IMG/VR virus record: IMGVR_UViG_3300036771_000096
Location: 1-27,671 of that record
Direction: 5' to 3' (one strand)
Length of the DNA: 27,671 nucleotides
Origin: a virus
The position numbers and the translations under genes are program-made. Below are positions 1 through 23,580 of this stretch, in pieces; position 1 is the stretch's first letter, and each line of letters starts with the position of its first letter. The notes beneath the pieces are model-generated. The model searched no databases, was not told the origin of the DNA, and saw nothing but the letters and a program-made list of their open reading frames with translations.

Positions 1-127
1 CGACCTGACCAAACTCACGCCCCTGCACTTCGACATCCCCAAGGGGACGTACACCAAACATCAGTTCCCCGACCCGTTCGTCACGCCCAAAGGTAAGAGC
101 ATCAGCAAGCCGGCGAAGTGGTAGGCC
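1..127. repeat. Terminal direct repeat, left copy (circular contig overlap)
   Basis: These 127 bases are identical to the last 127 bases of the window. An exact 127-base end overlap is the usual signature of a de Bruijn assembly (k = 127) closing on a circular molecule. The copy holds the 3' end and the TAG stop (122-124) of the NYN-domain gene whose full form lies at the other end. It should be counted once, giving a circle of 27,544 bp. A genuine short terminal repeat on a linear molecule is possible but less likely, because the repeat falls inside a coding sequence. Confidence 0.9.
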
Positions 128-530: not shown

Positions 531-790
531 TTTTCGCGCTCGGAGAGGCGAGGACTGGCGACTCTTTTTAGTGGTCAAAATATGTAAAAGTTCGCCGACC
601 GCGGAGGGCATTTTCTCACGTTTCTCTCGCGCTATTTTTCGGCCCGGCCGCACGCTTTTTTAGTGTGGAAATAATCGGAAAATTCGACCGCGCGGCAATC
701 ATTTTTGGGAGCCGAGCACCTGAGCACGTTCCGCCTCCCATCTATAGCTGTAAAGCTTGGAACGAAAGGGGAAGAGTCGGTTTATATGTC

Positions 791-820
791 ACCATGCTTT
801 CTATATATATAAATCATGGT
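791..820. other. AT-rich block with short inverted repeat (possible DNA unwinding element)
   Basis: ACCATG (791-796) and CATGGT (815-820) enclose an 18-bp, almost pure A/T core with a TATATATA run. This is the most AT-rich spot near the iterons and a natural candidate for the strand-opening site of an origin. It could also be a promoter or operator. Confidence 0.4.
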
Positions 821-927
821 CTCTATCTTCGGGAGTGAAAGGGGATACGGGGAGCCACTGTTTTAACACCTGCCCGCTCTTGCTTGGCGAAAACTGATGC
901 TTAATTCGCGCTCTCCCCAGACGAATT

Positions 928-1025
928 AATGTTCGTAACTTTGATGATTCAATGTTCCAAACTTTGACTTTCTTCGCGCCCGTTCAATGTTTGTAAGATT
1001 GAAGTTTTAATGTTCGTAACTTTAA
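928..1025. repeat. Four 17-bp iterons
   Basis: Four copies of a repeat with consensus AATGTTCGTAACTTTGA lie at 928-944, 951-967, 986-1002 and 1009-1025. The first and last copies differ by one base; the middle two carry a few substitutions. Start-to-start spacing is 23, 35 and 23 bp, so the copies lie about two or three helical turns apart and in the same orientation. This is expected of a Rep-protein binding array, although a ParB-type or repressor array cannot be excluded. Confidence 0.7.
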
Positions 1026-1206
1026 TTTCGGAGGGCAAAAATTGTCGCGCGGGCTGGCTCTTTTTTAGCGCGAGCAGGGGCGGAAAGTTTGGACATCTGG
1101 TGCCGCTTTTTTTGGTCTCTTTTTTGCCGTTTGTCGCGCCCGATAACGCGGGGTGTCGCAGCACTTTTGAACTATTAAGAATCCGTAAGGTGCGCGCGTT
1201 TTTTAG

Positions 1207-1215
1207 TGTGGAAAA
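1207..1215 (-). promoter_or_regulatory. DnaA-box-like 9-mer
   Basis: TTTTCCACA on the minus strand matches the relaxed DnaA-box consensus TTWTNCACA. A one-mismatch version (ATTTCCACA) lies at 664-672 in the other T6AG repeat. A single 9-mer is weak evidence, but its position beside the iterons adds support. Confidence 0.4.
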
Positions 1216-1239
1216 TAGCAGAAAGTTTGTCTCATTTTG

Positions 1240-4997: not shown

Positions 4998-5540
4998 CTA
5001 CGCAACGTTCAACTGCCGTCCGCCCTCGGCCGCCACGTTGATCTGCACGGACGGCCAGATAATCGCCTCAAGCTCGGCGTCGGTCATGGCCTGAAGTTCG
5101 TCGGCCATAAATTCAAGCAGCTCGTCGGGGACGCTTTTTAGGTGCTCTCTCCACAGCTCAACGAAGCGGCTTAACGACTCTTCGTCCAGCGCACGTGCGA
5201 GGCCGCGCAGGGGAGGGCGCGAGGGCACCTCGCGGGCGCGGCGTCGTAGCCACTCCATCAGCGCGCACGAACGGCGCGAGGCGGTTATCGTGGCGAGCGA
5301 GCTGCCGACGCCGTAGAGTTCGACCATGACTGCACGCCAGCGAGGCGCGCAGCCTTCGACGTTCCACGGCATCGGGCGCCCGCATTCGTGGCAGCCGCCA
5401 GCGAACTGGTCGGCGGGGTCTTTCGGGTCAGGCAATAAATCGCCGAGCGCGTGAGTAGCACAAAACGCGCGCCGCGCTTCCTCGGCATACAAGGCGTCTT
5501 CGGCCCTGCTGACTCGGGCGTCCATCCTCACGACCTGCAT
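4998..5540 (-). CDS. Hypothetical phage-like protein with CxxC pair
   Basis: About 180 aa from the ATG at 5540 (MQVVRMDARVSRAEDALYAE). The open frame continues upstream, but that part overlaps another small coding frame and has the composition of a shadow. AAGGGAGG lies very close to this ATG, so a GTG at 5531 or ATG at 5525 could be the true start. The middle has GGCHECGRPMPW plus a further Cys and a Trp-rich part, suggesting a small metal site. The C-terminus is helical and acidic (VPDELLEFMADELQAMTDAE). It is the last gene of a run of small genes led by a terminase-small-subunit-like protein. No function assigned. Confidence 0.6.
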   Translation of the reverse strand: MQVVRMDARVSRAEDALYAEEARRAFCATHALGDLLPDPKDPADQFAGGCHECGRPMPWNVEGCAPRWRAVMVELYGVGSSLATITASRRSCALMEWLRRRAREVPSRPPLRGLARALDEESLSRFVELWREHLKSVPDELLEFMADELQAMTDAELEAIIWPSVQINVAAEGGRQLNVA

Positions 5541-5548
5541 TCCTCCCT

Positions 5549-5695
5549 TCAAGGTGCGAGCGGGAGCGCGCCGGGGCTCGCGTCTTCCGGCGCGTCTTCG
5601 TAGCGCACGCGCATTTCGGCCGGTGCACAGGGGCCAACCTCGGCCGAGTCGCCGAGAGCACCCGACAGCTTTTCGACTCTGCTTTTCGTGCTCAC
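5549..5695 (-). CDS. Small protein (48 aa), paralogue-like neighbour of the 5692-5910 gene
   Basis: A GTG-started frame whose first bases overlap the TGA of the preceding gene (GTGA at 5695-5692), a classic coupling arrangement. Its protein begins MSTKSRVEKLSGALGD, like the preceding protein (MGVKSRVESLERATGN), and ends PGALPLAP at TGA 5549. Third-position GC is high along its length, unlike the two alternative frames. Below about 60 residues, it would be missed by length-based gene calling. Function unknown; the shared KSRVExL start suggests a short helical or coiled-coil segment. Confidence 0.6.
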   Translation of the reverse strand: MSTKSRVEKLSGALGDSAEVGPCAPAEMRVRYEDAPEDASPGALPLAP

Positions 5696-5910
5696 GCGGC
5701 TTCCCTTTGTTCGACGTACACGATTTGAAGTGTGAACGGGCTACCACAGCCAGGACAGTTCAGTTCGTAGGTGTCGCCGGGGTTCTCTACAAAGCCCTCC
5801 CGCATGACGGGCGACCTCTCGACCTCTGCGGCGCGGCGCTCGCACAGCGCGCAGGGCTGGCCGTTGCCGGTCGCACGCTCTAAACTCTCGACCCGACTCT
5901 TAACGCCCAT
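5692..5910 (-). CDS. Small zinc-ribbon-like protein (72 aa)
   Basis: Starts at the ATG at 5910, overlapping the end of the upstream HTH gene by 11 bp. It has two Cys pairs: CALC (about residue 21) and CPGC near the C-terminus (LNCPGCGSPF), the usual layout of a small zinc ribbon. The N-terminus KSRVESLERA is helical. Small zinc-ribbon proteins next to terminase-like genes are common in phages, usually without known function. Confidence 0.65.
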   Translation of the reverse strand: MGVKSRVESLERATGNGQPCALCERRAAEVERSPVMREGFVENPGDTYELNCPGCGSPFTLQIVYVEQREAA

Positions 5911-6301
5911 TCTTGCCCCCCTTCTTATCCGCGAGGAATTTTTCTAACTCCGCGACCCTCGGCAGAAGGTCTAAGGTTTCGACGGTCTTGTGCGCTCCTT
6001 CGATGATCGCGCGCGCGGCGGCCACTCTCGCCGAGGCGGGCGCGTCTTCACTCTCCGCGATGCCTATTAGCACCTTCGACGCCTTCGCCACGTTGGACGT
6101 GAGAGACGCGGCCCCGGCCTCCAACAGCTTGCAGCGTTGCGCCCTGTACGCCGTTGCGAAGGTCTCATCTTTAAGCCAGCGCCAGAGCGTCGTCTCCCCG
6201 ACCCCTGCGTCCTTCGCGGCGGCGCGGACTTCGCCGAGGGCGAGCAGGGAGGCCAGGGCCTTGTCCTGCTTAGGTGTTAATTTCTGGCCGGCGTCTTCCA
6301 T
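5900..6301 (-). CDS. Helix-turn-helix protein resembling phage small terminase subunit (phBC6A51-like)
   Basis: A 133-aa protein starting LTPKQDKALASLLALGEV. A helix-turn-helix follows (AAAKDAGVGETTLWRWL, about residues 28-45), then a long helical region rich in Ala and Arg and a C-terminal helix ending in Lys/Gly. This order (LTPKQ-like start, Tyr/Trp-type HTH, LLE helices, ASARVAAARAIIE-type repeat) is typical of proteins annotated as phage HTH or small terminase subunits. Small terminases recognise packaging sites, but no large terminase gene is present, so here it may act as a DNA-binding regulator. The start has only a weak ribosome binding site. It leads a four-gene minus-strand run to 4998. 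Confidence 0.7.
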   Translation of the reverse strand: MEDAGQKLTPKQDKALASLLALGEVRAAAKDAGVGETTLWRWLKDETFATAYRAQRCKLLEAGAASLTSNVAKASKVLIGIAESEDAPASARVAAARAIIEGAHKTVETLDLLPRVAELEKFLADKKGGKNGR

Positions 6302-6486
6302 CGTCTACCAAAGTCTTCCACCTGACGCGCCGTTTTCAATATGCAATTACGCGCCCTTTATGCGAGCCCCCTGCATAGTGAACAGAAGACCTGTGCACAA
6401 GATGTTGCGCGGGCCTTCATGGCCGAACAGTAGGGTTTCATTATCAGCGGACACAATAGCCATTAGCGGACGCGGGGATTATGGCT

Positions 6487-6831
6487 CTACATCACGCCGG
6501 GCAGTTCTTCGATTGATAACTCCTCACCCGTCTGTTCATGGTAGAGGGCAACAGCCTCGGCGTCCTGAGCGAAGCTTCGCAATAGCCCGTTGACAGGCTT
6601 GAAAGCTTCAGTCATGGCTTTCAGCCCGCCACCCGTCGCCTCGATTACTTCAAGAATCTGACGCCCGAGCGGGTCGCTTTCATCCAGAGTAGATAACGCG
6701 GGGATTTGTTGGAGGGCGCGAAGCTCTTCCAAACTGGCGAGCAGGCCCTCCGATGCCTGCCGCAATGAAAAAGAGTGGGAAACAAGCCATCGGATCAACG
6801 TAACCTTATCCGCAGCGGTCAATTCTTCCAT
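6487..6831 (-). CDS. Hypothetical protein, last gene of the primase-tail operon
   Basis: A 114-aa acidic, helical protein with no Cys, signal or membrane segment. GAGGTGA lies 5 bases before the ATG, and the gap to the upstream gene is 9 bp. It sits two genes after the tape measure gene, where long-tailed phages usually encode distal tail proteins, but its sequence is not recognisable as one. The 185 bp after it (6302-6486) contain no gene; two AGCGGAC boxes (about 6437 and 6457) are the only repeat noted there. Confidence 0.6.
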   Translation of the reverse strand: MEELTAADKVTLIRWLVSHSFSLRQASEGLLASLEELRALQQIPALSTLDESDPLGRQILEVIEATGGGLKAMTEAFKPVNGLLRSFAQDAEAVALYHEQTGEELSIEELPGVM

Positions 6832-6840
6832 CAGTTCACC

Positions 6841-7113
6841 TCAAGGCAGAAGGGAAAAAGCGCCGGGGATGGTGTCGGGGTCAAGACCCCAAGCGCGCGC
6901 CATCTCGCGCATCTCGTCGCGCGTGTTAAGCGCGAACTCTAGCCGTGGATAATGATATCCTCGGAGGGCGTGAAGCGTCCCCGGCATGAGCGTTTCGCCG
7001 CGTGCGCAGTTGATGGCGTGGCCGAGAAGAAACCTCCAAATCGAATACGCCCTCTCCTCCGGCGTCAGCCGCTCCCACTCTGGACAATCGCCGCAACGGG
7101 CTATGAAGCGCAT
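6841..7113 (-). CDS. Hypothetical protein after the tape measure gene (90 aa)
   Basis: Starts at the ATG at 7113 with AAGGGAG 8 bases upstream and only 12 bp after the tape measure stop. The N-terminus has a CGDCPEW motif and one further Cys (NCARGE), with several Trp and Tyr, so a small metal site is possible. Coupled spacing makes co-translation with the tape measure protein likely. A tail-tip or tail-associated role would fit position but not any recognised sequence. Confidence 0.6.
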   Translation of the reverse strand: MRFIARCGDCPEWERLTPEERAYSIWRFLLGHAINCARGETLMPGTLHALRGYHYPRLEFALNTRDEMREMARAWGLDPDTIPGAFSLLP

Positions 7114-7125
7114 TCCGTGTCTCCC

Positions 7126-10100
7126 TTAAAGGCGATCCATGCCTAAATGCGACTGCAATGCGCGGCGAAACCCGGGTGAGGACTCGGAGTGTTCGAGCAC
7201 AGCATTCCCAGCCGCCCGTATCCCCGCCGTGGTGTTGAGCCCCTTCTGCAAGATTGATTCGGGGCTGGCCGCCTCCCACGGTCGCAGCGCATTTACGACC
7301 CGGCCGTGTGAGTCAATCACGGCTGTCGTGCGCAGTTCGTCGCGCCTGTCCATCGCGTCGAGGCGGTCGAGCACGGCGGCGAGCACGCTCCCCGTCACGC
7401 CGGCACCCGACGCCTGCCCGAGCGGACGGCCGCCGATGGAGGGCGAAGGCAGAAGCGTGTTTCCGTTGACGGTAATCGGAGAGGCGGCAGAGCCGGGGAC
7501 GTTGTAAAGAAATTCGTGCGGCAGTTGCGGGCGCGTCCCCTGTCCTGTGGATGCGGCGTATTGGTCTATCAGCTCTTGCACGGGCGGGAGGTTGATAACT
7601 TCCGCGAGGTGAGAGCGAACCTGTCCGCGCCCGTATGCCTGCTCGCCCATCGCCTTGATCTGTTGGAGCGTGCCCATGTCTTTGACATCGACGCCGCGGG
7701 CCTGCTGAATGGCCTTCTGTAATTCCTTCTCCGTCTTATGTGAAAAATGTTTCCACAAAGCCAGCCCGCCGATGACTGAGCCGGCAACGACGGCCGTCCA
7801 CGGGTTAGTCAGGAGCGCCCCCAACGAACCGAAAGCGCCGCCCCCAGCCGCGCCCGCCCCCGCCGTCGAGCCCGCAGCCGTAGAGCCGCCGCCGAGGCCG
7901 AGACCCAAAGCCGCACCGCCACCCCCGCCGAAGAGTGCCGCGGCCGTCCCGCCGCCGAAGACCGACGCTATCCCGGCGCCCGGCGCCGCGCTGAAAATGA
8001 GAGGAGCCGAAGCGCTCGCGCCACTGAACAGACCACCCGCGGCGGCAGACGCCCCAGCGGATGCGGCGGCAGATGAGCCGCCGAGGCCGAAGAGGCGCCC
8101 GACCCCGCCCAAGAGACTACCAAGCCACCCGCCGCCCTTACTGCCACCGCCGAACAGCTTATCCGCCAGCTTCGCGGCCTCGGCTTTCAGAACCATCTGC
8201 GTGACCGCGAGCCCCCAATCCTCCCCGATGGTCTTGACCGTCGCGCGCCATCCCTCGCGGACGTGGGAAAAGGCGTCGTCAAGGGAGGACATGAAAATCC
8301 CTTTCATGTTCGCGGAGGTAAAACCCAGCTCGCGGAAGGACTGGCCGAGGCCACTGACGCGCACTCTCACCTTCTCCAACTCTTCCCCGCCGCGCTGCCC
8401 GAAGTCCTGTACGGCCCGCTGGTCGTCGAGCATCAGCGCGTACATCATCTGCAACGCGGGTATGACATCCTTCTGCGCCACGTCGCCGACGCCTTCGATG
8501 TAGACGCCCGAGTCTTTCAGCTTGCCGTTGAAGAGGCCGACCGATTCGGCCATCGCCTGAAGGCCCGCCGCCAACTCAGGGTCTACGCGCGGGCTCTGCC
8601 CCTGCCAGAGCTGATCGTCTAACTTACTGAAGTCAACCCCCGACCAATCGGAGCCCGCGAACCGCCCTAGTCCCGTTGTCAGGTCGGCGCCGCCGTAGTC
8701 GCGCGAGGGGGTGCCGGCGAGGCCGCGGATCACCGCGAGTTGGTCGGCGGGGCTCAAGTCTTGAAATCGCCCGCGCCCTTCGTCGGGCGAACGGTCGCCG
8801 CGGGTACGCCAGTTAGTTGACGCGGCGAGGTCGCGCACGGCCGCCGCCAACTCATCATCGCGCGTCGGCACGGCCTCGCCCCCGCGTACCGCGTTGAGAA
8901 GGCGGGAGGCCGAGCCGAACTGTTGGTCGTAACGGAGCGGATAAGCCGACTGCTCGACGCGTTGCGCCAACTGCCCCGGCGTTCCCGACTGAGACTGCCG
9001 GGCCGCCACCTCGAAGAACTTTCGGATGGCGTAGTCGGGGTCTAAGGTCTGCTCACGCGTGCCCCACCCTTTGCTCGGCCACATCTGAAACGGGCCGAAC
9101 GCCCGCGGGACGCCCCGACTATTCCTATCGCCTTCGTTGTTCAGGTTAAAACGCGACTCGACGTTAGCCGCCGCAAAGGCCGCCTCAATCTGCTTCTCGG
9201 TCGCGCCCACCTCGCGCGCTATCTCTAAAATCTTCTGCGCGAACTCAACCTGCACTTGCGACCACTGCCCGCCGCCGAGTGCGCCGCGCCCACCCTGAAA
9301 CAGCCCCATCACGCCGCCGGCTTTCTGCATCTCGGCGGTGAAACCTAACTTCCACCCCTGCGCGGCGTAAGCCCCGAGGGGTATAAATTCAGTGGCCGGG
9401 CTCTGCGCGCCAATGCCTTTGGCGAAGTCGCCCAGGTATGACTTCGCCAAGTCGAGCCCCGCGCCCGCGGCGCCCTTCGCCAAACCCGCCTTGATGTCCG
9501 CGCCGAGCTTTAAAGCCCCGCCCGTGAAGTCGCCCGAGGCGAGCGCGCGCCCCGTGGCCTCAAGTAAGCCGGTGACGGGGGAGATGGCGGATTGAATGTT
9601 AGACGCCACGCCCGCAGCGCCCGGGCCGCGCACCACATCGACGGCCTGCCGCAAGAAATCAATGGTGGTAGCGTGGACGGGTTGGGTGGCGACGCCGAGT
9701 AGCTTACTGATCGCCGTGTCATACCGCCGGGTCATGCCCTCAACGGTCTGCGTCATCTCGTCGGCGGCTTGCGTCCATTTAGGGCCAGTAAACGAATGCG
9801 TGAGGATGGTTATGAAATCCTCACCCGAGAGCGTGCCCGACGTGATAAGTTGCTCGGCCCGCTTTTTGGAGACCTGCAACTCCTCCGCGATAATGTCGTA
9901 AATGGGAATCTTGTTTCGGACGAACTGACGCACGACGCGCGCGTCTACTTTGCCGGTCTCAAGAACCCTCTCGATCAAGTCGGTGACGGCCGCGACCCTC
10001 CCCTCGCCCCCGCCCGTCGCCGTCGCCTGCGTCGCCAGAGCGCGCACGAGGTCTACCGCGCGCTGACCTTCCACGTTGAAAAGTTGCAAGTCCTCGACCG

Positions 10101-10572
10101 CGTTGACGAGGAAGCCCCGGCCGACGTTCGTGCGGAAAGCGATGTCGGAGATTTCCGACAGTTCGCGCTTCACGTCCGCGGCACTCCCGGCGACGAGGCC
10201 GAGTTGGATTTGTTGTTGCTTGAGGGAGTCGTTATAGGCGATGCCGCGCTCTGTGGCGTCCAGCAGTGTGCCGCTCACTTCACGGTAGGCTGCCGCGATG
10301 CCTTCGCCGACGACAGGGATTCCCTTCAATCCCGCCTCGGTGATGTTGATGAGTTTATCGACCGCGAGGCCGAAGTCGCCGAGCGCGACCTTCAGGCCCG
10401 TGTTGAGCTTGGCGGCGGACGACGAAAGGAGACCGTTGAAGGTGTCGGCGAAACTGGCGGTGTCGCGCTCGGCGTCGGCCGTGAACTGCCGGACGAGCGC
10501 GCGCGCCTGCGACAAGTCACCTTTGAGCTTGTCGCTCGGCGCGCGAAATTCATAAGTCAGCTCATCGGCCAT
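7126..10572 (-). CDS. Phage tail tape measure protein with lytic transglycosylase domain
   Basis: A 1148-aa protein. In long-tailed phages the tape measure protein fills the tail tube, sets tail length and passes into the cell ahead of DNA. Residues about 1-130 are helical. About 140-320 match the tape-measure N-terminal domain (KRELSEISDIAFRTNVG, later RQFVRNKIPIYDIIAEEL). About 440-565 form a lysozyme-like transglycosylase domain, with the likely catalytic Glu in NVESRFN (about 472) and GPFQMWP about 20 residues later. The C-terminal third has a long Gly/Ala-rich, membrane-compatible stretch (about 860-980). ATG 10572 has AAGGGGTG upstream. It follows the virion-morphogenesis and frameshifted chaperone genes, confirming a tail module. 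Tail length by the usual 1.5 angstrom per residue rule would be about 170 nm, if the whole chain is used. Confidence 0.93.
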   Translation of the reverse strand: MADELTYEFRAPSDKLKGDLSQARALVRQFTADAERDTASFADTFNGLLSSSAAKLNTGLKVALGDFGLAVDKLINITEAGLKGIPVVGEGIAAAYREVSGTLLDATERGIAYNDSLKQQQIQLGLVAGSAADVKRELSEISDIAFRTNVGRGFLVNAVEDLQLFNVEGQRAVDLVRALATQATATGGGEGRVAAVTDLIERVLETGKVDARVVRQFVRNKIPIYDIIAEELQVSKKRAEQLITSGTLSGEDFITILTHSFTGPKWTQAADEMTQTVEGMTRRYDTAISKLLGVATQPVHATTIDFLRQAVDVVRGPGAAGVASNIQSAISPVTGLLEATGRALASGDFTGGALKLGADIKAGLAKGAAGAGLDLAKSYLGDFAKGIGAQSPATEFIPLGAYAAQGWKLGFTAEMQKAGGVMGLFQGGRGALGGGQWSQVQVEFAQKILEIAREVGATEKQIEAAFAAANVESRFNLNNEGDRNSRGVPRAFGPFQMWPSKGWGTREQTLDPDYAIRKFFEVAARQSQSGTPGQLAQRVEQSAYPLRYDQQFGSASRLLNAVRGGEAVPTRDDELAAAVRDLAASTNWRTRGDRSPDEGRGRFQDLSPADQLAVIRGLAGTPSRDYGGADLTTGLGRFAGSDWSGVDFSKLDDQLWQGQSPRVDPELAAGLQAMAESVGLFNGKLKDSGVYIEGVGDVAQKDVIPALQMMYALMLDDQRAVQDFGQRGGEELEKVRVRVSGLGQSFRELGFTSANMKGIFMSSLDDAFSHVREGWRATVKTIGEDWGLAVTQMVLKAEAAKLADKLFGGGSKGGGWLGSLLGGVGRLFGLGGSSAAASAGASAAAGGLFSGASASAPLIFSAAPGAGIASVFGGGTAAALFGGGGGAALGLGLGGGSTAAGSTAGAGAAGGGAFGSLGALLTNPWTAVVAGSVIGGLALWKHFSHKTEKELQKAIQQARGVDVKDMGTLQQIKAMGEQAYGRGQVRSHLAEVINLPPVQELIDQYAASTGQGTRPQLPHEFLYNVPGSAASPITVNGNTLLPSPSIGGRPLGQASGAGVTGSVLAAVLDRLDAMDRRDELRTTAVIDSHGRVVNALRPWEAASPESILQKGLNTTAGIRAAGNAVLEHSESSPGFRRALQSHLGMDRL

Positions 10573-10576
10573 AACT

Positions 10577-11050
10577 TCACCCCTTCACCGGCAGGCCGCG
10601 CCGTCGCATCTCTTCGGTCGCGGCCTTCTTCACACGGGCCTTTAAGTCTCGCTTCTGCCACTCGCTCGGCGAGTAGACCTCGCGCGCTGGTATCGTCGCC
10701 GTGCCGCGCTGGTGGTAACTCGCGGGCGCGGGCAGGCGGAAGGTGATGCGGTCGCCCGAGACTTCGATCAACTCGCGCAGGCTGTCTACACTCGTCAGCC
10801 GCGCTCGCGTGGCGCCCGTCCTTTCGAGCGTGCGCGTGCTGTACCCTTCCGAAATCTTGAGGCGAATAGTCTGCGGCTTATCAGGCTGCCACAGCCCCGA
10901 AGCGCCGGCCGCCCCCTCGGAATCGAACTGCTCGCGCTCGACATCGGCGACCCATTCCGTGACGGGCTCGCGCATCAACTCGCCGGGGTGCTCGAATGCC
11001 GATTCCATCTGGCCGAACGCCCGTTCAAGTGCGCCGAAATTAACGCCCAT
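10577..11050 (-). CDS. Phage virion morphogenesis (tail completion) protein, Mu gpG/P2 gpS-like
   Basis: A 157-aa basic protein matching the layout of the phage virion-morphogenesis family: an N-terminal helix, a central segment (SGLWQPDKPQTIRLK) with a TG-type motif (ERTGATRARLTS), a beta segment (RITFRLPAPASYHQRGTAT), and a C-terminal basic helix after PARE. Family members help join or complete the tail. In phages the gene usually lies near the head-tail joining genes, before the major tail protein. Here it lies between the tail chaperone and tape measure genes, and no major tail protein gene is present. It ends 4 bp before the tape measure start and has a plain ATG at 11050. Confidence 0.7.
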   Translation of the reverse strand: MGVNFGALERAFGQMESAFEHPGELMREPVTEWVADVEREQFDSEGAAGASGLWQPDKPQTIRLKISEGYSTRTLERTGATRARLTSVDSLRELIEVSGDRITFRLPAPASYHQRGTATIPAREVYSPSEWQKRDLKARVKKAATEEMRRRGLPVKG

Positions 11051-11059
11051 CGTTTCACC

Positions 11060-11338
11060 TCAGAAACCCGCCGGGGCTTCACCTTCCGGTTTTTGAAACA
11101 GCACCGCGAGGCGAGCGCGCATCCGGCATTCGTGCATGTGCTCCCGCTGTCGCCAGGCTAAAAGCAGCTCCCGTGTGAGCGGGTCTGAGACCTCCGCAAG
11201 CCTCCCGCCTTCGGCCGCGAGCCACTGCACCGCGTCGCACACGGCCGCCACGTCCGGCCCCTCTTCAGTCTCTTCGCCCGCCCCGTGGAGCCGGTCAACC
11301 CGCTCTCGGATTGCCGGGACGAGCTGGCTCAGTTTTTT
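11060..11338 (-). CDS. Tail assembly chaperone, -1 frameshift extension (T part of G-T)
   Basis: This frame has no start or ribosome binding site of its own and begins directly at the slippery sequence of the upstream gene. It reads KKLSQLVPAIRERVDRL and continues for 90 residues after the slip to TGA at 11060. It is helical with several Trp, Cys and His. In lambda-like and many other long-tailed phages the corresponding extension is made only by a few percent of ribosomes, and the G-T fusion binds the tape measure protein during tail assembly. The fusion here would be about 371 aa. Confidence 0.8.
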   Translation of the reverse strand, partial: KKLSQLVPAIRERVDRLHGAGEETEEGPDVAAVCDAVQWLAAEGGRLAEVSDPLTRELLLAWRQREHMHECRMRARLAVLFQKPEGEAPAGF

Positions 11339-12174
11339 CTGAGTGCCGCCGTCGCGCGGCTCAGGTGGTAAGAGTAAGCGCGCGCCTTGTGAAGCATCGG
11401 CACCGCCCCCCTGTAGCCCGAGTGCGCGACGTGCAGCGCGTCGTAGCCGCTGGCGAACTCCTCGATGTTCCCGCCGAGTTTGTCCGCGCCGCCCGCCTGC
11501 GCCTGCGCCGCGTTGAACGCCGCGAGGCGCTGAGAGTCGGGCCGCCGCAGCGTGTGAGAAACTTCGATCATGCGGTTGCCGAACGGCACGCGGAAGCGGT
11601 TGACGACCGCGCCGGTTGACGCGGCCCACGACGGCCGCGCCTTCGTCTTTGTAACGGGGGTCGGGATGGGCTCGATTCCGAAGACGGCAGCGTTGATAAG
11701 CTCGGCCTTTTCCAGTGGGCCGAAGAGGCGGTCACGCCAGTCCGAAGGCACCTCTTCGCCCTCTTCGCCGATGCCCTCGACGCCCGACATGAGCACATCG
11801 AAAAGCCAGCAGCCGGCGGCGTTCATTCCGCCGAGCTTCAGCGCCGTATCCCCATCCTCTTCCGGCGCCTCCGCGGCGAGGGCCGCCGCCATCATGCGGG
11901 CGAAGGTGACGAGCGTCGTATCGGCCAGGGGCTCACATATTAGCGTCACGTCAACGCGCCCCTCCTCCCCCCACAGAGAGACCGGGAGGCGCTGGCGGGC
12001 CGTCGAGTCGTACACGTCCGCCTCGGGTTCGTCAGCCGTGCCGGCGTCAGGCTCGGGCTCTCCTTCGTCGGCGGGCGTCGCCTCTTCGGCCGCGGGCTCG
12101 CGGGACTCTTGCGGCTCGGTCGCACCGACCGGCAGCGGGTTCTCTGTCATGTCCTGATTAGGTTCCGTGCTCAT
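11329..12174 (-). CDS. Tail assembly chaperone (G part), 281 aa
   Basis: Starts at the ATG at 12174 (MSTEPNQDMTEN) with AAAGGA 7 bases upstream; an upstream TTG is rejected. The first 60 residues are acidic, Pro/Glu-rich and probably disordered. The core (about 65-275) mixes beta and helix (RQRLPVSLWG, RFRVPFGNRMIEV). The final codons before TGA form the heptamer A-AAA-AAC. Position two genes upstream of the tape measure, together with the frameshift, identifies it by analogy as the gpG-type chaperone; sequence similarity to named members is not obvious to me. The first gene product keeps the tape measure protein soluble until the tube polymerises around it. Confidence 0.75.
   Translation of the reverse strand: MSTEPNQDMTENPLPVGATEPQESREPAAEEATPADEGEPEPDAGTADEPEADVYDSTARQRLPVSLWGEEGRVDVTLICEPLADTTLVTFARMMAAALAAEAPEEDGDTALKLGGMNAAGCWLFDVLMSGVEGIGEEGEEVPSDWRDRLFGPLEKAELINAAVFGIEPIPTPVTKTKARPSWAASTGAVVNRFRVPFGNRMIEVSHTLRRPDSQRLAAFNAAQAQAGGADKLGGNIEEFASGYDALHVAHSGYRGAVPMLHKARAYSYHLSRATAALRKN
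11332..11338 (-). promoter_or_regulatory. Programmed -1 ribosomal frameshift site A-AAA-AAC
   Basis: In the zero frame the message reads AGA AAA AAC TGA. A AAA AAC fits the X XXY YYZ rule for tandem -1 slippage, and the stop codon follows at once. After slippage the next codon is CTG and the frame stays open for 90 codons. Downstream GC-rich sequence (for example CCGGCA/TGACCGG-type pairs) may form a stimulatory stem, but I could not fold it. Confidence 0.85.
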
Positions 12175-12178
12175 CCGT

Positions 12179-12421
12179 TCATCCTTTCGCAAGCGACTCG
12201 GCGCGGCGCTTCGCGCTCTGGTAAAAGCCGACCGCGAGACGTTCGCGCGGTGGCAGCCTGTAGAACTCTTTCAAGTCCAAATCCGACAACCTTTCGAGCA
12301 GCCCCGAGCGTGTGAAGGTCGCGCGGCCCTCGGCCTGCGCCTTGAGGCTTTCAAGCTCCGCGTCCATGACGAGCGTCGCGGGCTTGGCATCAACATTATG
12401 AACCCTTTTTGATTTTCTCAT
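12179..12421 (-). CDS. Small basic hypothetical protein (80 aa)
   Basis: Starts MRKSKRVHNVDAKPATLV at 12421 and ends TGA 4 bp before the chaperone start. It is charged and helical, with an Arg/Lys-rich C-terminus (FYQSAKRRAESLAKG). In many long-tailed phages the gene before the chaperone encodes the major tail protein, but this protein is far too small. An inverted repeat AACCCTT/AAGGGTT (12403-12409 and 12422-12428) straddles its start and might be a control site. No family recognised. Confidence 0.6.
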   Translation of the reverse strand: MRKSKRVHNVDAKPATLVMDAELESLKAQAEGRATFTRSGLLERLSDLDLKEFYRLPPRERLAVGFYQSAKRRAESLAKG

Positions 12422-12430
12422 AAGGGTTTG

Positions 12431-12598
12431 TTATGCCGCTTTTTTCAACGTGGCCCGTGCCTTCCGCTCGGCGTACAGCCTGACTTTGGTCTGAAGGCCC
12501 AGGGAGACTTCGCGGGCGAAGCGCCGCGGCTGTTCGTCGCGGCATCTGAGCAAGGCTTCGAGCCATTCGTTTATGATGAACGGGCCTTCCCTCTTCAT
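12431..12598 (-). CDS. Small hypothetical protein (55 aa)
   Basis: A short frame reading MKREGPFIINEWLEALLRCR and ending in a basic helix with TLKKAA. GAGGTGAGG lies immediately upstream of the ATG at 12598, and the stop of the upstream gene (12607) is 8 bp away, so it sits naturally in the operon. It is too short for usual length cut-offs. Its frame explains third-position GC better than the overlapping longer frames on either strand. Function unknown. Confidence 0.6.
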   Translation of the reverse strand: MKREGPFIINEWLEALLRCRDEQPRRFAREVSLGLQTKVRLYAERKARATLKKAA

Positions 12599-12606
12599 GC
12601 CTCACC

Positions 12607-12969
12607 TCAATTCATCGACAAGGCGACGCGCGAGCGGAGAGCGCGTCGCGTGTCATACGTGCAGTTGAAAAGCGTCCGGTCTAATTCCTGACTCAGACAC
12701 TCGGCGAACGTGCCGCGGGCGATAATCTCTTGATTGATTGCGTCAGTCAGCGTATCCGCGTCCGCCGCCGGGCGGGACGGGTTGGGGTCAAAGTCAGTCC
12801 CGCCGAAGGCTTCGAGCAGTTGATAGTCCTGCCACATCTGTTCGAGCGTGGGGCCGCCGAGACTGACGCGAATCGCGGAGGCCCGTTGGCAGCTCTCGTA
12901 CCAATCGCGCGCCCTCTCGGTGACAAGGCGCAGCCAGGCGGTGAAATGGTCTTCGGTCGAAGTGTTCAC
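12607..12969 (-). CDS. Hypothetical protein (120 aa) coupled to the primase gene
   Basis: Starts with GTG at 12969, overlapping the TGA of the primase gene (GTGA). It reads MNTSTEDHFTAWLRLVTERA, is acidic and mostly helical with three Cys and several Trp, and ends ALRSRVALSMN. No domain recognised. The overlap makes translation dependent on the primase, so a replication accessory role is possible but unproven. Confidence 0.6.
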   Translation of the reverse strand: MNTSTEDHFTAWLRLVTERARDWYESCQRASAIRVSLGGPTLEQMWQDYQLLEAFGGTDFDPNPSRPAADADTLTDAINQEIIARGTFAECLSQELDRTLFNCTYDTRRALRSRVALSMN

Positions 12970-14816
12970 GCGACCCCCTCTCTAATCGGCACGCCGAGCG
13001 GGTAGCGGCTCGATATGCTGTCCACGATCTTGTAGACCTCGTTTGATTCGAGCGGCGGCGACACCCTTTCGACGTTGACCCTCATCAACTCCTGAAGCAG
13101 GTCGCCGCGGCTCCCCACTTCGCCTTTGCCCCACAGCGCGCACCCGACGCGGAACAGTCTTTCGTTGCGCTCGCCCTCGACGATGGCCGTGCCGCCGGCA
13201 GAGGCTTTACGGTCGCGGTAGGCTTGGAAGTCCACGGGCACGCGCGGGGCTTCGCCCTCGGCGCGCGTCAGTTCTTCGACGAGCCACGCGGGCGCCTCGG
13301 CGATGTAGACGTTTTTCTCGACCTCGTACCGGCGGCCCGAAGAGTGAACCGAAGGCGGGGCGACGAGATATCCGCCCTCGGCCTTCAGGTCGATGCCGGG
13401 CGCGAGCTTCGCGCGGTGCGGCTCGACGCCTTCGGGCAGGCGGAAGACGAAATGATTGCCGAGCGAGCCCGTCCGCACGGTAAAGGTCTCTAACCAATCA
13501 TCCCCGTGCGCCTCTACCAAATCGCAGAGCGAGGCGTCGCCGCCCGAGCGCGGGTCAACGTCCACGCCGAGGAGCCGGAGCGGCCCACCCATCGCCCACG
13601 CGAGATTTGCGTGCGGCTCTTTGGCGAACCATCGGCGGATTGCGGCCTCGTCTTCGGTCGCGTTCTTCACGCCGCGGGGAGTCAAAGCGGGAATCGGGTG
13701 CTTGCCTGCGCTCCGGCATTCCGAGCCTTCGGGGCAATGGCAGACGCCATCCGTGCAGCCGTAGACGGGGAAGACGGCGATCCCCTGCGCGGCCATGTTG
13801 AGCGCGTAGGGCAGCGCGTCGGATTCGGCCTCTTCGGGCGTTTCCGAAAAAGGCGCCTCCGCAAACTCTTGAACCGGCGCGGCTTCTGGCGCACCCCCTA
13901 GAGAAATTTCTCTAGGGTCGCCGGGGGGGTCTACCTCAAAATCGGTAACGCTGTCTTTACCACTGTGCGGCGGGTCGGCGGGTCGGCTTGCTGGGTGCAT
14001 AACGTCGCGCAGGCGCTCGCGGGCGAGCTTCTGTTTGATGTGCTTGCCGATCTCGATAATCTTTGCCGCGTGGCGCTGGGCGGCTAACTCGGGGTCGCCG
14101 CCGCTGTCGAACTCCTTGACGAGCGCGCGCTCGGCCGCCGTCATGACCTTCGTCCACATGCCCTTGACGACCGCCTCGGTCGCGAGGTCTCCGGCCGCCC
14201 AGCGTTCGCACTCGTCACACTCCCCTGACCCGGCCGGGTGTCCGCACGCGGCCTCAACCGCCTCGGGCTCGGGCCTCTCTTCGACCGTGACGACCGGGAG
14301 GGCGTTGATGGCCTCGTCGAGCAGTTCATCCGTCACGGCGGCGCGCGGGTTTTTCCAATAGTCCTCAGACTGTCGGGCCTTGAAGTAGACGGACTCGGCG
14401 GCGTCTAAGAGCGGGTGCGCCTGATACCAGGTGAAAAGCTGATCCTCGTCGGCCCGCTTGACGGTGACGAACTCTCGGCCGCACGCCTCCTCTGCCGCGC
14501 GCAGGGCGTCGAGCCTGGAGCCCATGAACTTCGCGGCGTTCTCGGTCTTACCCGTGTAATCGAAGTAGGGCGTGACCCACTGGTGAGACTTCATCAAAGC
14601 CCGGCCCGGCTTGGACAAGTCCTGGCCGTGGAAGAAGGCGTGCAGCGCGTGGACGGTGTGAAAGACGGAAGGCTTGAAAGCCTTCCGCCCCTCTTCGTCG
14701 AGCCCCTGCATGATGCGGTTCAGGAGGCGGTTGACGACGGCCGCGACGTGCTGGTAAGAGCGCCGCGCGCTCGTGGCGTCTCGGCGGGTGAAAGGCTGCG
14801 GGGCCGCCTGCGTCAT
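12966..14816 (-). CDS. Prim-Pol (bifunctional DNA primase/polymerase) replication protein with novel N-terminal region
   Basis: A 616-aa protein; the ATG at 14816 is chosen because it overlaps the stop of the upstream gene (TAATG). Residues about 335-515 form a Prim-Pol domain of the archaeo-eukaryotic primase superfamily. GVDVDP carries the catalytic DxD (about 419/421), GSLGNHFVF the conserved His (about 455), and PGIDLKAEGGYLVAPPS the third Asp (about 476). A C-terminal helical region (ERNERLFRVGCALWG, then NEVYKIVDSI) resembles the primase C-terminal domain. The first about 330 residues are not recognised: a helical part, a CGHPAGSGECDEC Cys cluster and an acidic linker. No helicase domain is fused or encoded nearby. 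It probably primes or initiates replication of this circle. Confidence 0.85.
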   Translation of the reverse strand: MTQAAPQPFTRRDATSARRSYQHVAAVVNRLLNRIMQGLDEEGRKAFKPSVFHTVHALHAFFHGQDLSKPGRALMKSHQWVTPYFDYTGKTENAAKFMGSRLDALRAAEEACGREFVTVKRADEDQLFTWYQAHPLLDAAESVYFKARQSEDYWKNPRAAVTDELLDEAINALPVVTVEERPEPEAVEAACGHPAGSGECDECERWAAGDLATEAVVKGMWTKVMTAAERALVKEFDSGGDPELAAQRHAAKIIEIGKHIKQKLARERLRDVMHPASRPADPPHSGKDSVTDFEVDPPGDPREISLGGAPEAAPVQEFAEAPFSETPEEAESDALPYALNMAAQGIAVFPVYGCTDGVCHCPEGSECRSAGKHPIPALTPRGVKNATEDEAAIRRWFAKEPHANLAWAMGGPLRLLGVDVDPRSGGDASLCDLVEAHGDDWLETFTVRTGSLGNHFVFRLPEGVEPHRAKLAPGIDLKAEGGYLVAPPSVHSSGRRYEVEKNVYIAEAPAWLVEELTRAEGEAPRVPVDFQAYRDRKASAGGTAIVEGERNERLFRVGCALWGKGEVGSRGDLLQELMRVNVERVSPPLESNEVYKIVDSISSRYPLGVPIREGVA

Positions 14817-15109
14817 TACGCCGCCCTCCGATTCTGCCACGTCGGGCGCGGCGACTCTTCGCGTTCGGCCCTCTCGGCGCCGCGTACTAAGGCGTCAACG
14901 GCCGAGGCTGACGCGCCGTGCATCAAAGCCCGCTGCTCAAGTCGGGTCAGGACGACGCCGCCCTCGACTACGTGCCGGCGGCGCTTCATCAAGGCCGTCT
15001 CGCTTGAGGCGCTGGCAGCCGGGGCGGGCGTCATGCCGAAGGCCCGAAGACCTCCGCGCGCGTCTGTTTGGGGTTTGCTTTCGGTCGGTAGGGTTGGTAG
15101 GATACGCAT
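14816..15109 (-). CDS. Hypothetical protein leading the primase-tail operon (97 aa)
   Basis: Starts MRILPTLPTESKPQTD at 15109 with AAGGA 7 bases upstream. It is basic, low in complexity at the start, and more ordered after about residue 40 (MKRRRHVVEGGVVLTRLEQR). Its stop overlaps the primase start. No family recognised; being first in the operon, it may be a regulator or primase partner. Confidence 0.6.
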   Translation of the reverse strand: MRILPTLPTESKPQTDARGGLRAFGMTPAPAASASSETALMKRRRHVVEGGVVLTRLEQRALMHGASASAVDALVRGAERAEREESPRPTWQNRRAA

Positions 15110-15150
15110 GTCCGCGTCCTTTCAGCAGTAGGTCAAGTAAGTGTTATCCG

Positions 15151-15189
15151 CGCCCCGAGAGAATGAGCCCTCTCGGGGCGTTTCAGTTT
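15151..15189 (+). terminator. Terminator-like 11-bp hairpin
   Basis: CGCCCCGAGAG and its exact complement flank an 8-nt loop, followed on the plus strand by TTTCAGTTT. Transcription known to reach it would come from the minus strand, where no T-run follows, so its working direction is unclear. Confidence 0.4.
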
Positions 15190-15202
15190 GCGCGGGCAAA
15201 TT

Positions 15203-15260
15203 GCAAAAGCCCTGCGCGCATCGCGGGCCGCTACTCCCGGTCTGCGCGCAGGGCTTTTGC
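15203..15260. repeat. 18-bp perfect inverted repeat (possible cruciform or terminator)
   Basis: GCAAAAGCCCTGCGCGCA (15203-15220) is exactly complementary to 15243-15260, around a 22-nt centre that itself contains CGGG/CCCG. The minus-strand copy ends GGGCTTTTGCAATTT, so it can terminate transcription from the upstream HTH gene. The length and perfection are unusual for a simple terminator. Confidence 0.6.
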
Positions 15261-15583
15261 GTGGATGCGCGACCGCGGCGGCGGACGGCGCACTCTCGTT
15301 CAAAGCTCAAGCGGCGGCGGTAGCGGGTCGCCGATAAACTTTTGTGTGCTGATTGAAGTGCGGGCGGGGATGAAGAATCCTTGACGCGGAGAGCGCGTCA
15401 AGTTAGGATTTATCGCCCGTCGCACTTAACAGCGGCGGTATCCAACAGAGCAGGCGCGGCGTGACCCTGGAAAAGTTCGCCGCGTTTTGCTTTTCAGCAA
15501 AACGTCTTTTCACCCACCTTCGATACCTGAATCAAAAAGAACTGAGTGTGACTATACACACCGCGACACAAGGCGTCAACGTT

Positions 15584-16399
15584 TTATCGCTCCGTTAAAG
15601 TCTTACCGTCGAACTCTATCAAGGTCGGGTATAGCGGCATTCCCAAGTAATACCGTTTGGCGGCGTCCCATCCTTTAAGCCCTCTCGCTAGAATGTGACG
15701 CTGAAGTAAGCGGGGCGTCACGCACAACTCTTTTGCGATTTGAACTTGCGTGGCATCGATGCCATGCTTTTGAATTGCCTGCTTTAAGGCTTCTTCATCG
15801 AACCTCTCGCCGCCGCCGCGCGTCTCGCGCCGGTAGAACTCGAAAGCCTTGCCGATGATCTCCAACTCTTCGGGCGTGTTCTGATGTCCGGCGAAGCCGT
15901 GCACCGTTACTAGCCGCCCGTGCGTGGGGTGTGAATGTACGTCAATTTTGAGCGCGCTATTCCTGTGCGTGATTCGCGCGGCGAAGTAGTAAACGAACTT
16001 CTCAGGCTTGCCGTCATCTCCTTCCGTCCACGTGTAAGAGAGGAACGCGCCCGAAGGCTTGGGCATCTCCTCTGTTGAGTCGAGTCCGACTATCTCGACC
16101 TTAAAACCGGCGTAGCGCGGGATGAAATGATTATCCGTGACGGTCTTAATGCGATACTTCCCGCGTTTGATTTCTGGCGTGTCAAGTGTCACGACAAAGC
16201 GCGGGTCGGGGGCGAGGCCGAAGACGTAGCTGGTGACGCCCTTCGGCGGCCTATGCTTCTTAAACTTCTTTCCCTTCACCCAATGACTACCGAAGCGGCG
16301 CATAGTCGGGTAGTGCTGGATTACGCTATCGCGCGCCGTCGGCGTGAGTACGTTATCGAGAAAATCCGGGTCACAGTAAGGGCATTTAGTCTTCGACAT
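15584..16399 (-). CDS. Unknown protein with N-terminal CPYC and C-terminal helix-turn-helix
   Basis: A 271-aa basic protein. The ATG at 16399 has GGAG 8 bases upstream; a GTG directly before it is possible. The N-terminus MSKTKCPYCDPDFLDN looks like half of a zinc knuckle. The middle is beta-rich (SYVFGLAPDPRFVVTLD, then RITHRNSALKIDVHSHPTH). The C-terminus contains a helix-turn-helix (IDATQVQIAKELCVTPRLLQ, about 215-240), also seen in FIS-like or Mor-like regulators. I do not recognise the family. A DNA-binding role is supported by the HTH. It could be the replication initiator for the iterons, the activator of the primase-tail operon or a regulator of something else. Confidence 0.6.
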   Translation of the reverse strand: MSKTKCPYCDPDFLDNVLTPTARDSVIQHYPTMRRFGSHWVKGKKFKKHRPPKGVTSYVFGLAPDPRFVVTLDTPEIKRGKYRIKTVTDNHFIPRYAGFKVEIVGLDSTEEMPKPSGAFLSYTWTEGDDGKPEKFVYYFAARITHRNSALKIDVHSHPTHGRLVTVHGFAGHQNTPEELEIIGKAFEFYRRETRGGGERFDEEALKQAIQKHGIDATQVQIAKELCVTPRLLQRHILARGLKGWDAAKRYYLGMPLYPTLIEFDGKTLTER

Positions 16400-16423
16400 C
16401 ACAGCTACTCCCCCGCCTACGAC

Positions 16424-17122
16424 CTATTTCCGAAGAAGTTTTTTCCAAGAGTCCTGATAGTTGTTTTCGTCGAACACTACCTGTTCAATCTTTTTCACTC
16501 CAGGCGGAATTTCATCGGCGCTGATATATAACTCGAAGGGGGTAGGCTCCCCAGGCATCGCATCCGCATAGGTTGTGTGACCGCCGAGAAGTTTGCCAAC
16601 TCCGTCTCGATAGAGAAAAGTTATCCAAACGCTTGTCTTGCCGGGGTAAGGGTTTTTAACCTCGCCAGTCACGTGAACTGCGCCGTACTCATTCGTGCGC
16701 GACCTTACCCCTACCAATTCAAAAGGTAGGAAATCTGACGACCTGTAGACTGTTGGTTCATAGTGAGCGGCAAGAGGTCTGATTTCGATTTTTGCAGGCA
16801 TTTCGTCGGCAAAAGTAAAGCCGCAGAAAGCAATTCTACTCTTCGGGGGAATTCCCGCCGAACTATAGGTCTGTGTGGTAATGACGGAGCTGTCCGCAGC
16901 CCTAGCGGTCATCCTCACGCTAGGGCTTGAGGCGAATTGATCCTCGTAGGGGTTCTCGACAATAACTATAAAACTGACCTTGACCTTGCCGATACTGGTA
17001 GGGGAAACATACGAGGCCGATTCGATAACCGTGGTTTCGGTATCTCGCGTAACTTGAGCCAACGCCGGTGCCGAGAGGGCGAGCGCCGCGATGATTGCGA
17101 GTAATGTTAGACGTGAGCGCAT
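16424..17122 (-). CDS. Secreted protein with FxLYD-like repeat
   Basis: About 232 aa. The ATG at 17122 has AAAGGA at proper spacing; an ATG at 17128 is also possible and the longer open frame is not. The signal peptide is MRSRLTLLAIIAALALSAPA, then LAQ, with cleavage after ALA. The mature chain has two similar beta-sandwich halves, each with a KV-x-VENPY or EVKNPYPG strand followed by a turn and a 'F.F.D' or 'FELYISADE' end. The second resembles the FxLYD family of secreted beta domains found in envelope proteins. No catalytic residues are seen. It lies between the unknown HTH gene and the partition operon without obvious coupling. Confidence 0.75.
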   Translation of the reverse strand: MRSRLTLLAIIAALALSAPALAQVTRDTETTVIESASYVSPTSIGKVKVSFIVIVENPYEDQFASSPSVRMTARAADSSVITTQTYSSAGIPPKSRIAFCGFTFADEMPAKIEIRPLAAHYEPTVYRSSDFLPFELVGVRSRTNEYGAVHVTGEVKNPYPGKTSVWITFLYRDGVGKLLGGHTTYADAMPGEPTPFELYISADEIPPGVKKIEQVVFDENNYQDSWKKLLRK

Positions 17123-17204
17123 CTTCATCCTTTCGCCGCCCTGCCCCGTACGTAGGCATCCATACCTTATTTTTTTGGCCTCGGCAATAGCTAAATTCAA
17201 TCGT

Positions 17205-17260
17205 TTGAGTAATTAGCTAATCGGTTAATTGAATAATCGCTTACGCGAATAACTGAGTAT
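17205..17260. repeat. AT-rich repeat block downstream of the partition operon (candidate centromere 1)
   Basis: The segment has CTAATCGGTTAATT, GAATAATCGCTT, TTACGCGAATAA and CTGAGTATTCAG in close order. The GAATAATCG and GCNTACGCGAATA elements recur in the block upstream of the same operon (18905-18975). AT-rich short repeats beside parA/RHH genes are usual centromere sites. The element could equally be an operator for the 17122 gene. Confidence 0.5.
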
Positions 17261-17524
17261 TCAGCCACGCGATTTCAACCACCTTTCCAAGAGTTCTTCG
17301 ACCAATTCGCTGAACTCCTTATCCTCCAAAGCCAGCGCCGACTTAACCTGCTTGTGAACGTCCCGGCGGATGTAGGCGGAGGCTTGGGTGTACTCCTCCT
17401 TGTTCTCGCGCTTCCCGCCGGCGTAGCCGCGGGGTCGGCCCCTGCCCCGCTTGCCCGACTCCTCTTCTCGCTTCAGCTCCGCGCGGGCGTCGAAGATGGA
17501 GCTGAACTTGCTCCGGTTAGCCAC
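17261..17524 (-). CDS. parB: ParB-like ribbon-helix-helix partition protein
   Basis: An 87-aa basic protein. Its GTG start (17524) overlaps the parA stop by one base (TAGTG), and GGAGGAG lies about 9 bases upstream inside parA. A flexible basic N-terminus with AT-hook-like GRGRPRGYAGGKR is followed by a ribbon-helix-helix (TQASAYIRRDVHKQVKSALA, then FSELVEELLERWL). This is the layout of small centromere-binding proteins paired with class Ib ParA proteins. The ribbon binds centromere repeats, the N-terminus stimulates ParA ATPase, and the protein usually represses its own operon. Likely sites are the repeat blocks on either side of the operon. Confidence 0.8.
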   Translation of the reverse strand: MANRSKFSSIFDARAELKREEESGKRGRGRPRGYAGGKRENKEEYTQASAYIRRDVHKQVKSALALEDKEFSELVEELLERWLKSRG

Positions 17525-18899: not shown

Positions 18900-18909
18900 G
18901 ACTATATAG

Positions 18910-19341: not shown

Positions 19342-19357
19342 CTCCTAGTGCCTTTCT

Positions 19358-19552
19358 TCACGCTGCGTCCTTTCCTTCGGGTTCGCGCCCATCACGCTCG
19401 CGGCTCACCCGGTAGCGCCTCCGCATGTCGTCGAGCATCGCCTTCAGTTCGGGGCTCGGCTCGGGGCGCTTCCGCTCGGGCGTCTTGACGAGGCGCGGCC
19501 CGCGGCCGGCGCTGAGGTGCTCGATGATGTCGGGCTCGTGCTCGTCGCTCAC
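19358..19552 (-). CDS. Small charged hypothetical protein (64 aa)
   Basis: GTG start at 19552 overlaps the TGA of the regulator gene (GTGA). It reads MSDEHEPDIIEHLSAGRG with a Pro/Arg/Glu-rich middle and a basic helix (MLDDMRRRYRVSRE). Likely largely disordered. Translation appears coupled to the regulator, so it may be its partner or antagonist; this is inference. Confidence 0.55.
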   Translation of the reverse strand: MSDEHEPDIIEHLSAGRGPRLVKTPERKRPEPSPELKAMLDDMRRRYRVSRERDGREPEGKDAA

Positions 19553-19803
19553 GGCTTCGCCTCCGGTTTCTTCCGCGACCTGCGCGGGGGCTCTTGTGCT
19601 TCAGCCTTGCGCGGGCGGCCTGTTTTCTTCGGCGGCTCAAACGTCGTTAGGTCGCCTTCGGGAATCATCCACACATCCCCGCGTGACTCTTTCCGCACGT
19701 AGGCGTTTGGCAGGAGCCCCCGTTGACACCATAGCCGCACGTTGGCCGCCGTGACGTTGAACCGTTCAGCGACTTGCGACGTGGATAAGTCTTTCGCGCT
19801 CAT
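19549..19803 (-). CDS. MerR/excisionase-like helix-turn-helix regulator with AT-hook tail
   Basis: An 84-aa protein. Residues about 5-50 form a winged helix-turn-helix of the MerR/excisionase type (STSQVAERFNVTAANVRLWC, then a wing with GDVWMIPEGDL). The tail KKTGRPRKA is an AT-hook-like segment followed by a Lys/Arg/Pro-rich end. Start at ATG 19803. It lies beside a divergent promoter region with three copies of GCGCGTGCG, one of them near its own -10, so it is the natural candidate to bind them and control both itself and the plus-strand operon at 19941. No integrase gene is present, so an excisionase role is unlikely. Confidence 0.75.
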   Translation of the reverse strand: MSAKDLSTSQVAERFNVTAANVRLWCQRGLLPNAYVRKESRGDVWMIPEGDLTTFEPPKKTGRPRKAEAQEPPRRSRKKPEAKP

Positions 19804-23578: not shown

Positions 23579-23580
23579 TT
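23543..23580. repeat. Dispersed repeat D, copy 1
   Basis: TACC, then GGATTCAAC and GGGGCGATTCTG with GCGAAGTTT recur at 26797-26835 in the same order and orientation, with a few changes and a 1-2 base gap. This copy touches the stop codon of the gene at 23579. Confidence 0.55.

Follow-up and report, generated by a model that had tools for sequence, protein, structure and literature searches.

Phage satellites resize or replace heads, redirect packaging, or supply their own heads and steal tails. The plasmid satellites PISP and cf-PISP of Vibrio crassostreae are small circles that carry parA, a replication gene and a partial set of virion genes, PISP also a small terminase and a MerR-like regulator (PMC13230959). 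The virion genes comprise capsid and protease, in cf-PISP also portal and large terminase (TerL), without tail genes. Capsid-forming phage-inducible chromosomal islands (cf-PICIs), as summarised in PMC10690885 (citing Alqurainy et al. 2023), are integrated in the chromosome and supply heads while taking tails, with one part of the virion coming from the element and the rest from the helper. Streptococcus satellite phages of the Javan series are chromosomal and carry an integrase, and the phage-plasmid pLBA of Leptolyngbya boryana combines a tape measure protein (TMP) with terminase, capsid and portal. A tail-specifying satellite was not found described in the open literature, subscription papers lying outside the search. 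Here we analyse the complete IMG/VR record IMGVR_UViG_3300036771_000096 (27,671 nt; the window), a plasmid-like circle in which tail assembly genes and a small-terminase-like gene, but no recognisable head genes, form one minus-strand cluster running from 15109 to 4998 (the module). A second circle, IMGVR_UViG_3300013027_000041 (L136), holds a similar head-less kit.

The window starts and ends with identical 127-nt stretches (1..127 and 27545-27671), the match extending no further, and the molecule is therefore a 27,544-bp circle; 127 is a usual k-mer size of the SPAdes assembler. Judged from its genes, the circle is plasmid-like DNA with predicted ParA/RHH maintenance and host-like cargo, which bears out the partitioning plasmid proposed in the initial annotation, where 4998-15109 was described as a phage tail module without head genes. 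Like PISP and cf-PISP it is a small circular plasmid with parA, its own replication gene and a partial virion gene set, and like PISP it has a small-terminase-like gene and a MerR-like regulator, a likeness of gene content, whereas a satellite-type capsid protein is missing and the virion genes are of the opposite kind. The same reversal separates it from the cf-PICIs described in that summary, with tube and baseplate also missing, and no integrase family was found in the scans of window open reading frames (ORFs). By analogy, the circle is best read as following the logic of PISP and cf-PISP in mirror image, re-specifying the tail and packaging of a helper and not its head. The module contains the following features, in order of transcription.

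14816..15109, minus: 97-aa protein, first gene of the module, overlapping the start of the Prim-Pol gene
12966..14840, minus: replication protein with Prim-Pol (PF09250, 1.8e-35) and PriCT_1 (PF08708, 1.7e-7) domains
12607..12969, minus: 120-aa protein, no family in Pfam and PHROG scans
12431..12598, minus: 55-aa protein, no TerL, portal, capsid, tube, baseplate or lysis family in the small-ORF scan
12179..12421, minus: 80-aa protein, no family in Pfam and PHROG scans
11329..12174, minus: gpG-like tail assembly chaperone, 281 aa, identified by frameshift and position
11332..11338, minus: slippery heptamer A AAA AAC, in phase at the end of the G frame
11060..11332, minus: gpT-like extension of 90 codons, reached by -1 frameshift
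10577..11050, minus: tail-completion, Neck1 or virion morphogenesis protein, 157 aa, whose relatives match PF05069 and phrog_26
7126..10572, minus: TMP, 1148 aa, Pfam TMP_3 above cut-off (E=3.2e-17)
6841..7113, minus: 90-aa protein, no family in Pfam and PHROG scans
6487..6831, minus: 114-aa protein, no family in Pfam and PHROG scans
5900..6301, minus: small-terminase-like (TerS-like) HTH protein, 133 aa, phrog_2538 'terminase small subunit' (2.4e-6)
5692..5910, minus: 72-aa protein with two CxxC motifs, overlapping the end of the TerS-like gene, phrog_2622 (unknown function, 1.6e-4)
5552..5695, minus: 48-aa ORF beginning MSTKSRVEKL, no family
4998..5534, minus: 178-aa protein with a Cys-rich N-terminal half, last gene of the module, G+C at third codon positions (GC3) 0.77, no family

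The genes from the 97-aa to the 114-aa protein overlap or are spaced by no more than ~12 nt, a gap of 185 nt precedes the TerS-like gene, and the start of the last ORF (listed as 4998-5747) more likely lies nearer 5534. The replication protein has a unique N terminus of ~340 aa and lacks a helicase domain in alignments; its best PHROG is phrog_1156. The genes named in the initial annotation are all present, to which the Prim-Pol gene and the ORFs at 5692-5910 and 5552-5695 should be added.

The 281-aa frame ends in AGA AAA AAC TGA, with the heptamer at 11338-11332 in the correct phase, and the -1 frame continues for 90 codons to 11060 with a coding-like G+C content by codon position (0.81/0.48/0.75). 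The coding sequences examined contain 14 X XXY YYZ sites in phase, and this one alone leads to a -1 extension of more than 45 codons. When codons were shuffled, a strong heptamer fell within ten codons of the end of any gene in 3.9% of trials. RNA folding downstream of the slippery site was unremarkable (z=-1.4). The gene is the second upstream of the TMP gene, with the tail-completion gene standing between them, and has the -1 frameshift at the end of G, upstream of a tape measure gene, that marks gpG/gpGT pairs. The 281-aa protein and its extension are, on this frameshift and position, a putative gpG/gpGT-type chaperone, as had been proposed. The protein matched no family in Pfam or PHROG and nothing by BLAST or tblastn, and its AlphaFold2 model (pLDDT 38) was too poor for a fold search, as was that of a 272-aa protein.

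The TMP, likewise foreseen in the initial annotation, matches TMP_3 over residues 110-293 and contains at residues ~437-590 a muralytic (lysozyme-like) domain in which the invariant catalytic-type Glu is kept. This domain is common to TMPs and lysins of actinobacteriophages and to C40 or NlpC/P60 peptidases on actinobacterial plasmids. When it was removed, the N-terminal part still matched TMPs from Microbacterium phages, with a best E of 5e-6. Matches to the TMP in plasmids, several of them conjugative, were considered as marks of relatives and rejected, as they fall in the muralytic domain shared with those peptidases.

The virion-morphogenesis assignment of the 157-aa protein was upheld by tblastn matches to the 'tail completion or Neck1' protein of Arthrobacter phage ArV1 (E=9e-4) and, weakly, to a 'virion morphogenesis' protein of MW202444 (E=0.4). 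In an alignment along its length with the proteins of ArV1, Vibaki and MW202444, HQ.G and P motifs are invariant, and these relatives match phrog_26 (in the 1e-22 range), that of MW202444 also PF05069. The 133-aa HTH protein is a plausible TerS, because the phrog_2538 protein of L136 overlaps the start of a real TerL. It matches PF13022 below cut-off, and its best matches among named phages are in Streptococcus satellite phages (E=9e-6), where a 112-aa HTH protein of the Javan series is 36-38% identical over 120 aa; those satellites differ in their unrelated replication genes, and no TMP appears in the annotation of Javan156.

The absence of head genes was examined in scans against PHROGs and/or Pfam, which covered 20 main ORFs, 146 further ORFs (six frames, at least 55 aa, plus two shorter) and the small ORFs of the module. 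No family of TerL, portal, capsid, protease, tube, baseplate, holin, lysis or integrase proteins was found in these ORFs, the sole exceptions being a GDSL-lipase gene matching tail-fibre/lipase families and the endolysin-like domain within the TMP. Six-frame searches of the window with phrog_2 and phrog_38 (TerL), PF04860 (portal) and PF05065 (HK97 capsid) were negative, and each of these profiles had a match in one or both of the positive controls, MW202444 and pLBA. In pLBA, where the genes bar terminase are annotated as hypothetical, PHROGs detected capsid, portal and TerL, and poor annotation of a phage-plasmid therefore does not defeat the method. Profile scans can nevertheless miss divergent proteins, as they miss gpG. 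The unassigned module proteins reach at most 178 aa, and the large ones outside the module have N termini that look secreted or membrane-type, in keeping with the initial judgement that the remaining proteins are too small or wrongly built for the missing roles. The term tail module is an overstatement in that tube and baseplate genes are missing; the circle therefore cannot build a tail alone. Plasmid maintenance genes (ParA/RHH and iteron-like repeats) are present and the complete virion gene set of a phage-plasmid is not.

During tail assembly the chaperone coats the TMP and draws in tube subunits, and the tube is closed off by tail-completion proteins before a head is attached (PMC10884400). 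The circle thus encodes a ruler, a recruiter and a cap, with a probable packaging selector in addition, and tube, baseplate, head and TerL would be needed from a helper. We tentatively favour, at somewhat less than an even chance, the reading that it is a low-copy plasmid acting as a phage satellite on tails. Gene content and circularity are established by the sequence, the TerS and chaperone roles are putative, and helper dependence, packaging and tail re-gauging would run as follows. The plasmid would maintain itself by ParA/RHH and replicate from its own origin with the Prim-Pol primase. During growth of a helper phage the late operon would supply TerS, which would recruit the helper's large terminase to plasmid DNA, together with the TMP, the frameshift chaperone (G/GT) and the tail-completion protein. 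These could nucleate, gauge and cap tails made of helper tube and baseplate proteins, and such tails would join helper heads. The resulting particles would contain the plasmid and have the plasmid's own TMP, with its wall-cutting domain, as determinant of tail length and entry. The borrowing of heads suggested in the initial annotation would on this reading be too weak a description, as most tail parts would also come from the helper.

An anti-phage role for the same proteins, which would mis-assemble with the tube proteins of an infecting phage, block its tails and protect the host, appears improbable. Blocking of tail assembly is known in satellites and prophages (Tai, PMC11364771; Tab, which targets the TMP, PMC10884400), and the plasmid carries other accessory genes, but the known blockers are small dedicated proteins and not whole sets of TMP and chaperone, a TerS-like gene would be unneeded and a muralytic domain pointless.

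The circle L136 was found by a scan with a ParA alignment. It is 14,220 bp long with 55-nt identical ends and encodes a ParA 61% identical to that of the window, an RHH partner and, directly after the par genes and on the same strand, a TMP of 1300 aa (phrog_2335, 4e-32; TMP_3, 2e-29). Its primase matches phrog_1156, the same PHROG as the Prim-Pol protein of the window, and its TerS (phrog_2538, 8e-8) overlaps an intact TerL (phrog_2, 9e-26). No head, tube or baseplate gene was found in L136 by profile scans and six-frame searches. It differs from the window in its smaller size, in having TerL and in lacking a recognisable chaperone or tail-completion gene. The two TMPs have no detectable homology by BLASTP (E=0.013), and L136 is therefore a recurrence of a kit and not a close relative. 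Profile searches of the remaining proteins and a search for related circles had both been proposed in the initial annotation; the former returned no head families and the latter this similar kit, not the same gene set. That both circles belong to a class of satellite-plasmids re-specifying tail and packaging choice but not the head, with heads, tubes and baseplates from helpers, is a possible extension, though less likely than not, in which tape measure and TerS would be supplied by both and chaperone and terminator by the window. In a third sequence, L233 (a genome from the search centred on G001, Pleurocapsa), a chromosomal stretch at 6984-19366 beside a CTP synthase-like gene holds a TMP-like gene with more large ORFs downstream. 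The C-terminal part of this TMP-like protein shares 40% identity over 307 aa with the TMP of L136, and the stretch is possibly a prophage or tail-like island.

The sharing of ParA, TMP and TerS by two head-less circles makes both an assembly chimera and a one-off decay less likely. In the former, a phage contig and a plasmid would have been joined via shared sequence into a false circle. The G+C content differs somewhat between the module (~65%) and the remainder of the circle (52-66%), and the junction regions (~4.87-5.0 kb and 15.1-15.6 kb) are unsupported by any relative. However, the closure over 127 nt is exact, the Prim-Pol and tail genes are packed on one strand, no repeat spans both junctions and codon preference is shared (r=0.97 between module and rest, inside the null expectation), and we regard a chimera as very improbable.

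Decay is the main rival and a serious possibility, only slightly less plausible to us than a satellite. The circle would be a phage-plasmid that deleted its head, tube and baseplate genes, or a plasmid with a captured late-operon fragment, and the tail genes a relic or neutral. Plasmid functions indeed occupy the stretch just behind TerS and ahead of the tail genes (from 4998 round to 15109), where TerL and head genes usually stand, and the plasmid set includes full phage-plasmids such as pLBA, which have TMP, TerL, portal and capsid. The position of tail completion between chaperone and TMP is unusual when compared with ArV1 and Vibaki, and the gap ahead of TerS is unpacked. On the other hand, none of the module ORFs is disrupted, the slippery site and T extension are likewise intact, codon usage is like that of the rest of the circle, and a similar head-less kit is retained in the 14-kb L136. 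A satellite or tail-altering plasmid is favoured by the intact, packed genes, the intact frameshift, the best named-phage relatives of the TerS-like protein, which are in Streptococcus satellite phages, and the existence of L136. The three readings first offered (decayed phage-plasmid, head-borrowing satellite, tail-altering plasmid) were the right candidates, among which the evidence shifts weight and is not decisive.

Several observations weigh against the satellite reading. No close relationship is detectable between the two TMPs, L136 has a TerL that the window lacks, and gpG is without a detectable homologue. The TerS assignment is weak, resting on an HTH family and a direct comparison with L136 TerS at an HHalign probability of 62%. 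Decayed-looking pieces lie elsewhere on the circle. Finally, searches for close relatives of the module came up empty. Megablast of the window against 50,697 phage and 72,556 plasmid records gave no relative, pattern scans of viral contigs (single TMP, Prim-Pol, gpG and ParA) and of genome contigs (TMP) gave none, and the concatenated module proteins had no match in plasmids. Scans with TerS, tail-completion and muralytic-domain alignments found relatives having that one gene only, except one sequence (L058) with both the muralytic domain and the tail-completion gene. TMP_3 was absent from all 13 other best ParA relatives in IMG/VR (12 of 24-52 kb and one of 149 kb), and ParA of this type is therefore not generally accompanied by the kit. 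Cyanobacterial ParA plasmids were considered as carriers of the kit and rejected, none of the four inspected being annotated with it.

Outside the module genes, the following features were identified.

1..127, copy at 27545-27671, no strand: 127-nt terminal repeat, exact identity, marking the circular 27,544-bp molecule
564..1227, no strand: iteron-like repeats, putative plasmid origin region, with a 29-nt TTTTTTAGTGTGGAAA... family and a 20-nt TTAATGTTCGTAACTTTGAT family (repeat search)
15110..15583, minus: structured leader with several strong hairpins (folding z=-5.6 vs shuffles), best promoter-like match at 15579-15551
17261..17524, minus: RHH/ParG-like partner of ParA, resembling the gene after parA in sequences L008 and L009
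17524..18114, minus: ParA partition ATPase (PF01656), closest plasmid ParA 66-67% identical
19549..19803, minus: MerR/HTH_17 regulator, MerR_1 above cut-off (1.3e-4)

The repeat region at 564-1227 is, from its sequence, a probable plasmid origin. The hairpins of the leader include a 25-nt inverted repeat, and the leader could be a regulated leader, a Prim-Pol replication origin or a packaging site. The ParA is 67% identical to cyanobacterial plasmid ParA and 66% to that of Granulicella and Abditibacteriota plasmids; since relatives of ParA and of the cargo proteins are scattered over many phyla, no host is claimed for the circle. Further cargo includes a DUF4041/T5orf172 protein, the GDSL lipase and several secreted proteins. 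An NYN-domain (PIN-like nuclease) protein (27021-27668, plus) has relatives on numerous plasmids, some of them very small and enterobacterial, and the Granulicella plasmid has an NYN gene near parA. A short ORF (1206-1478, plus) has an end that looks by eye like the C terminus of a PIN-domain toxin and is perhaps a decayed toxin gene. A 51-nt sequence with a G+C-rich hairpin-like core occurs in two copies of 90% identity (22042-22092 and 23425-23475). The gene for a 430-aa secreted-looking protein (23579-24871, minus) has a GC3 of 0.51, compared with ~0.75 in most genes, and is probably a recent arrival. Neither tRNA genes nor matches to Rfam families were found in the window.

If the satellite reading is correct, a ruler, chaperone, cap and packaging selector without head or tube would be the mirror image of the capsid-forming satellites. 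Tail length and DNA-entry specificity would then become targets of molecular piracy, and such elements would explain some environmental plasmids that are called viruses despite having no capsid genes.

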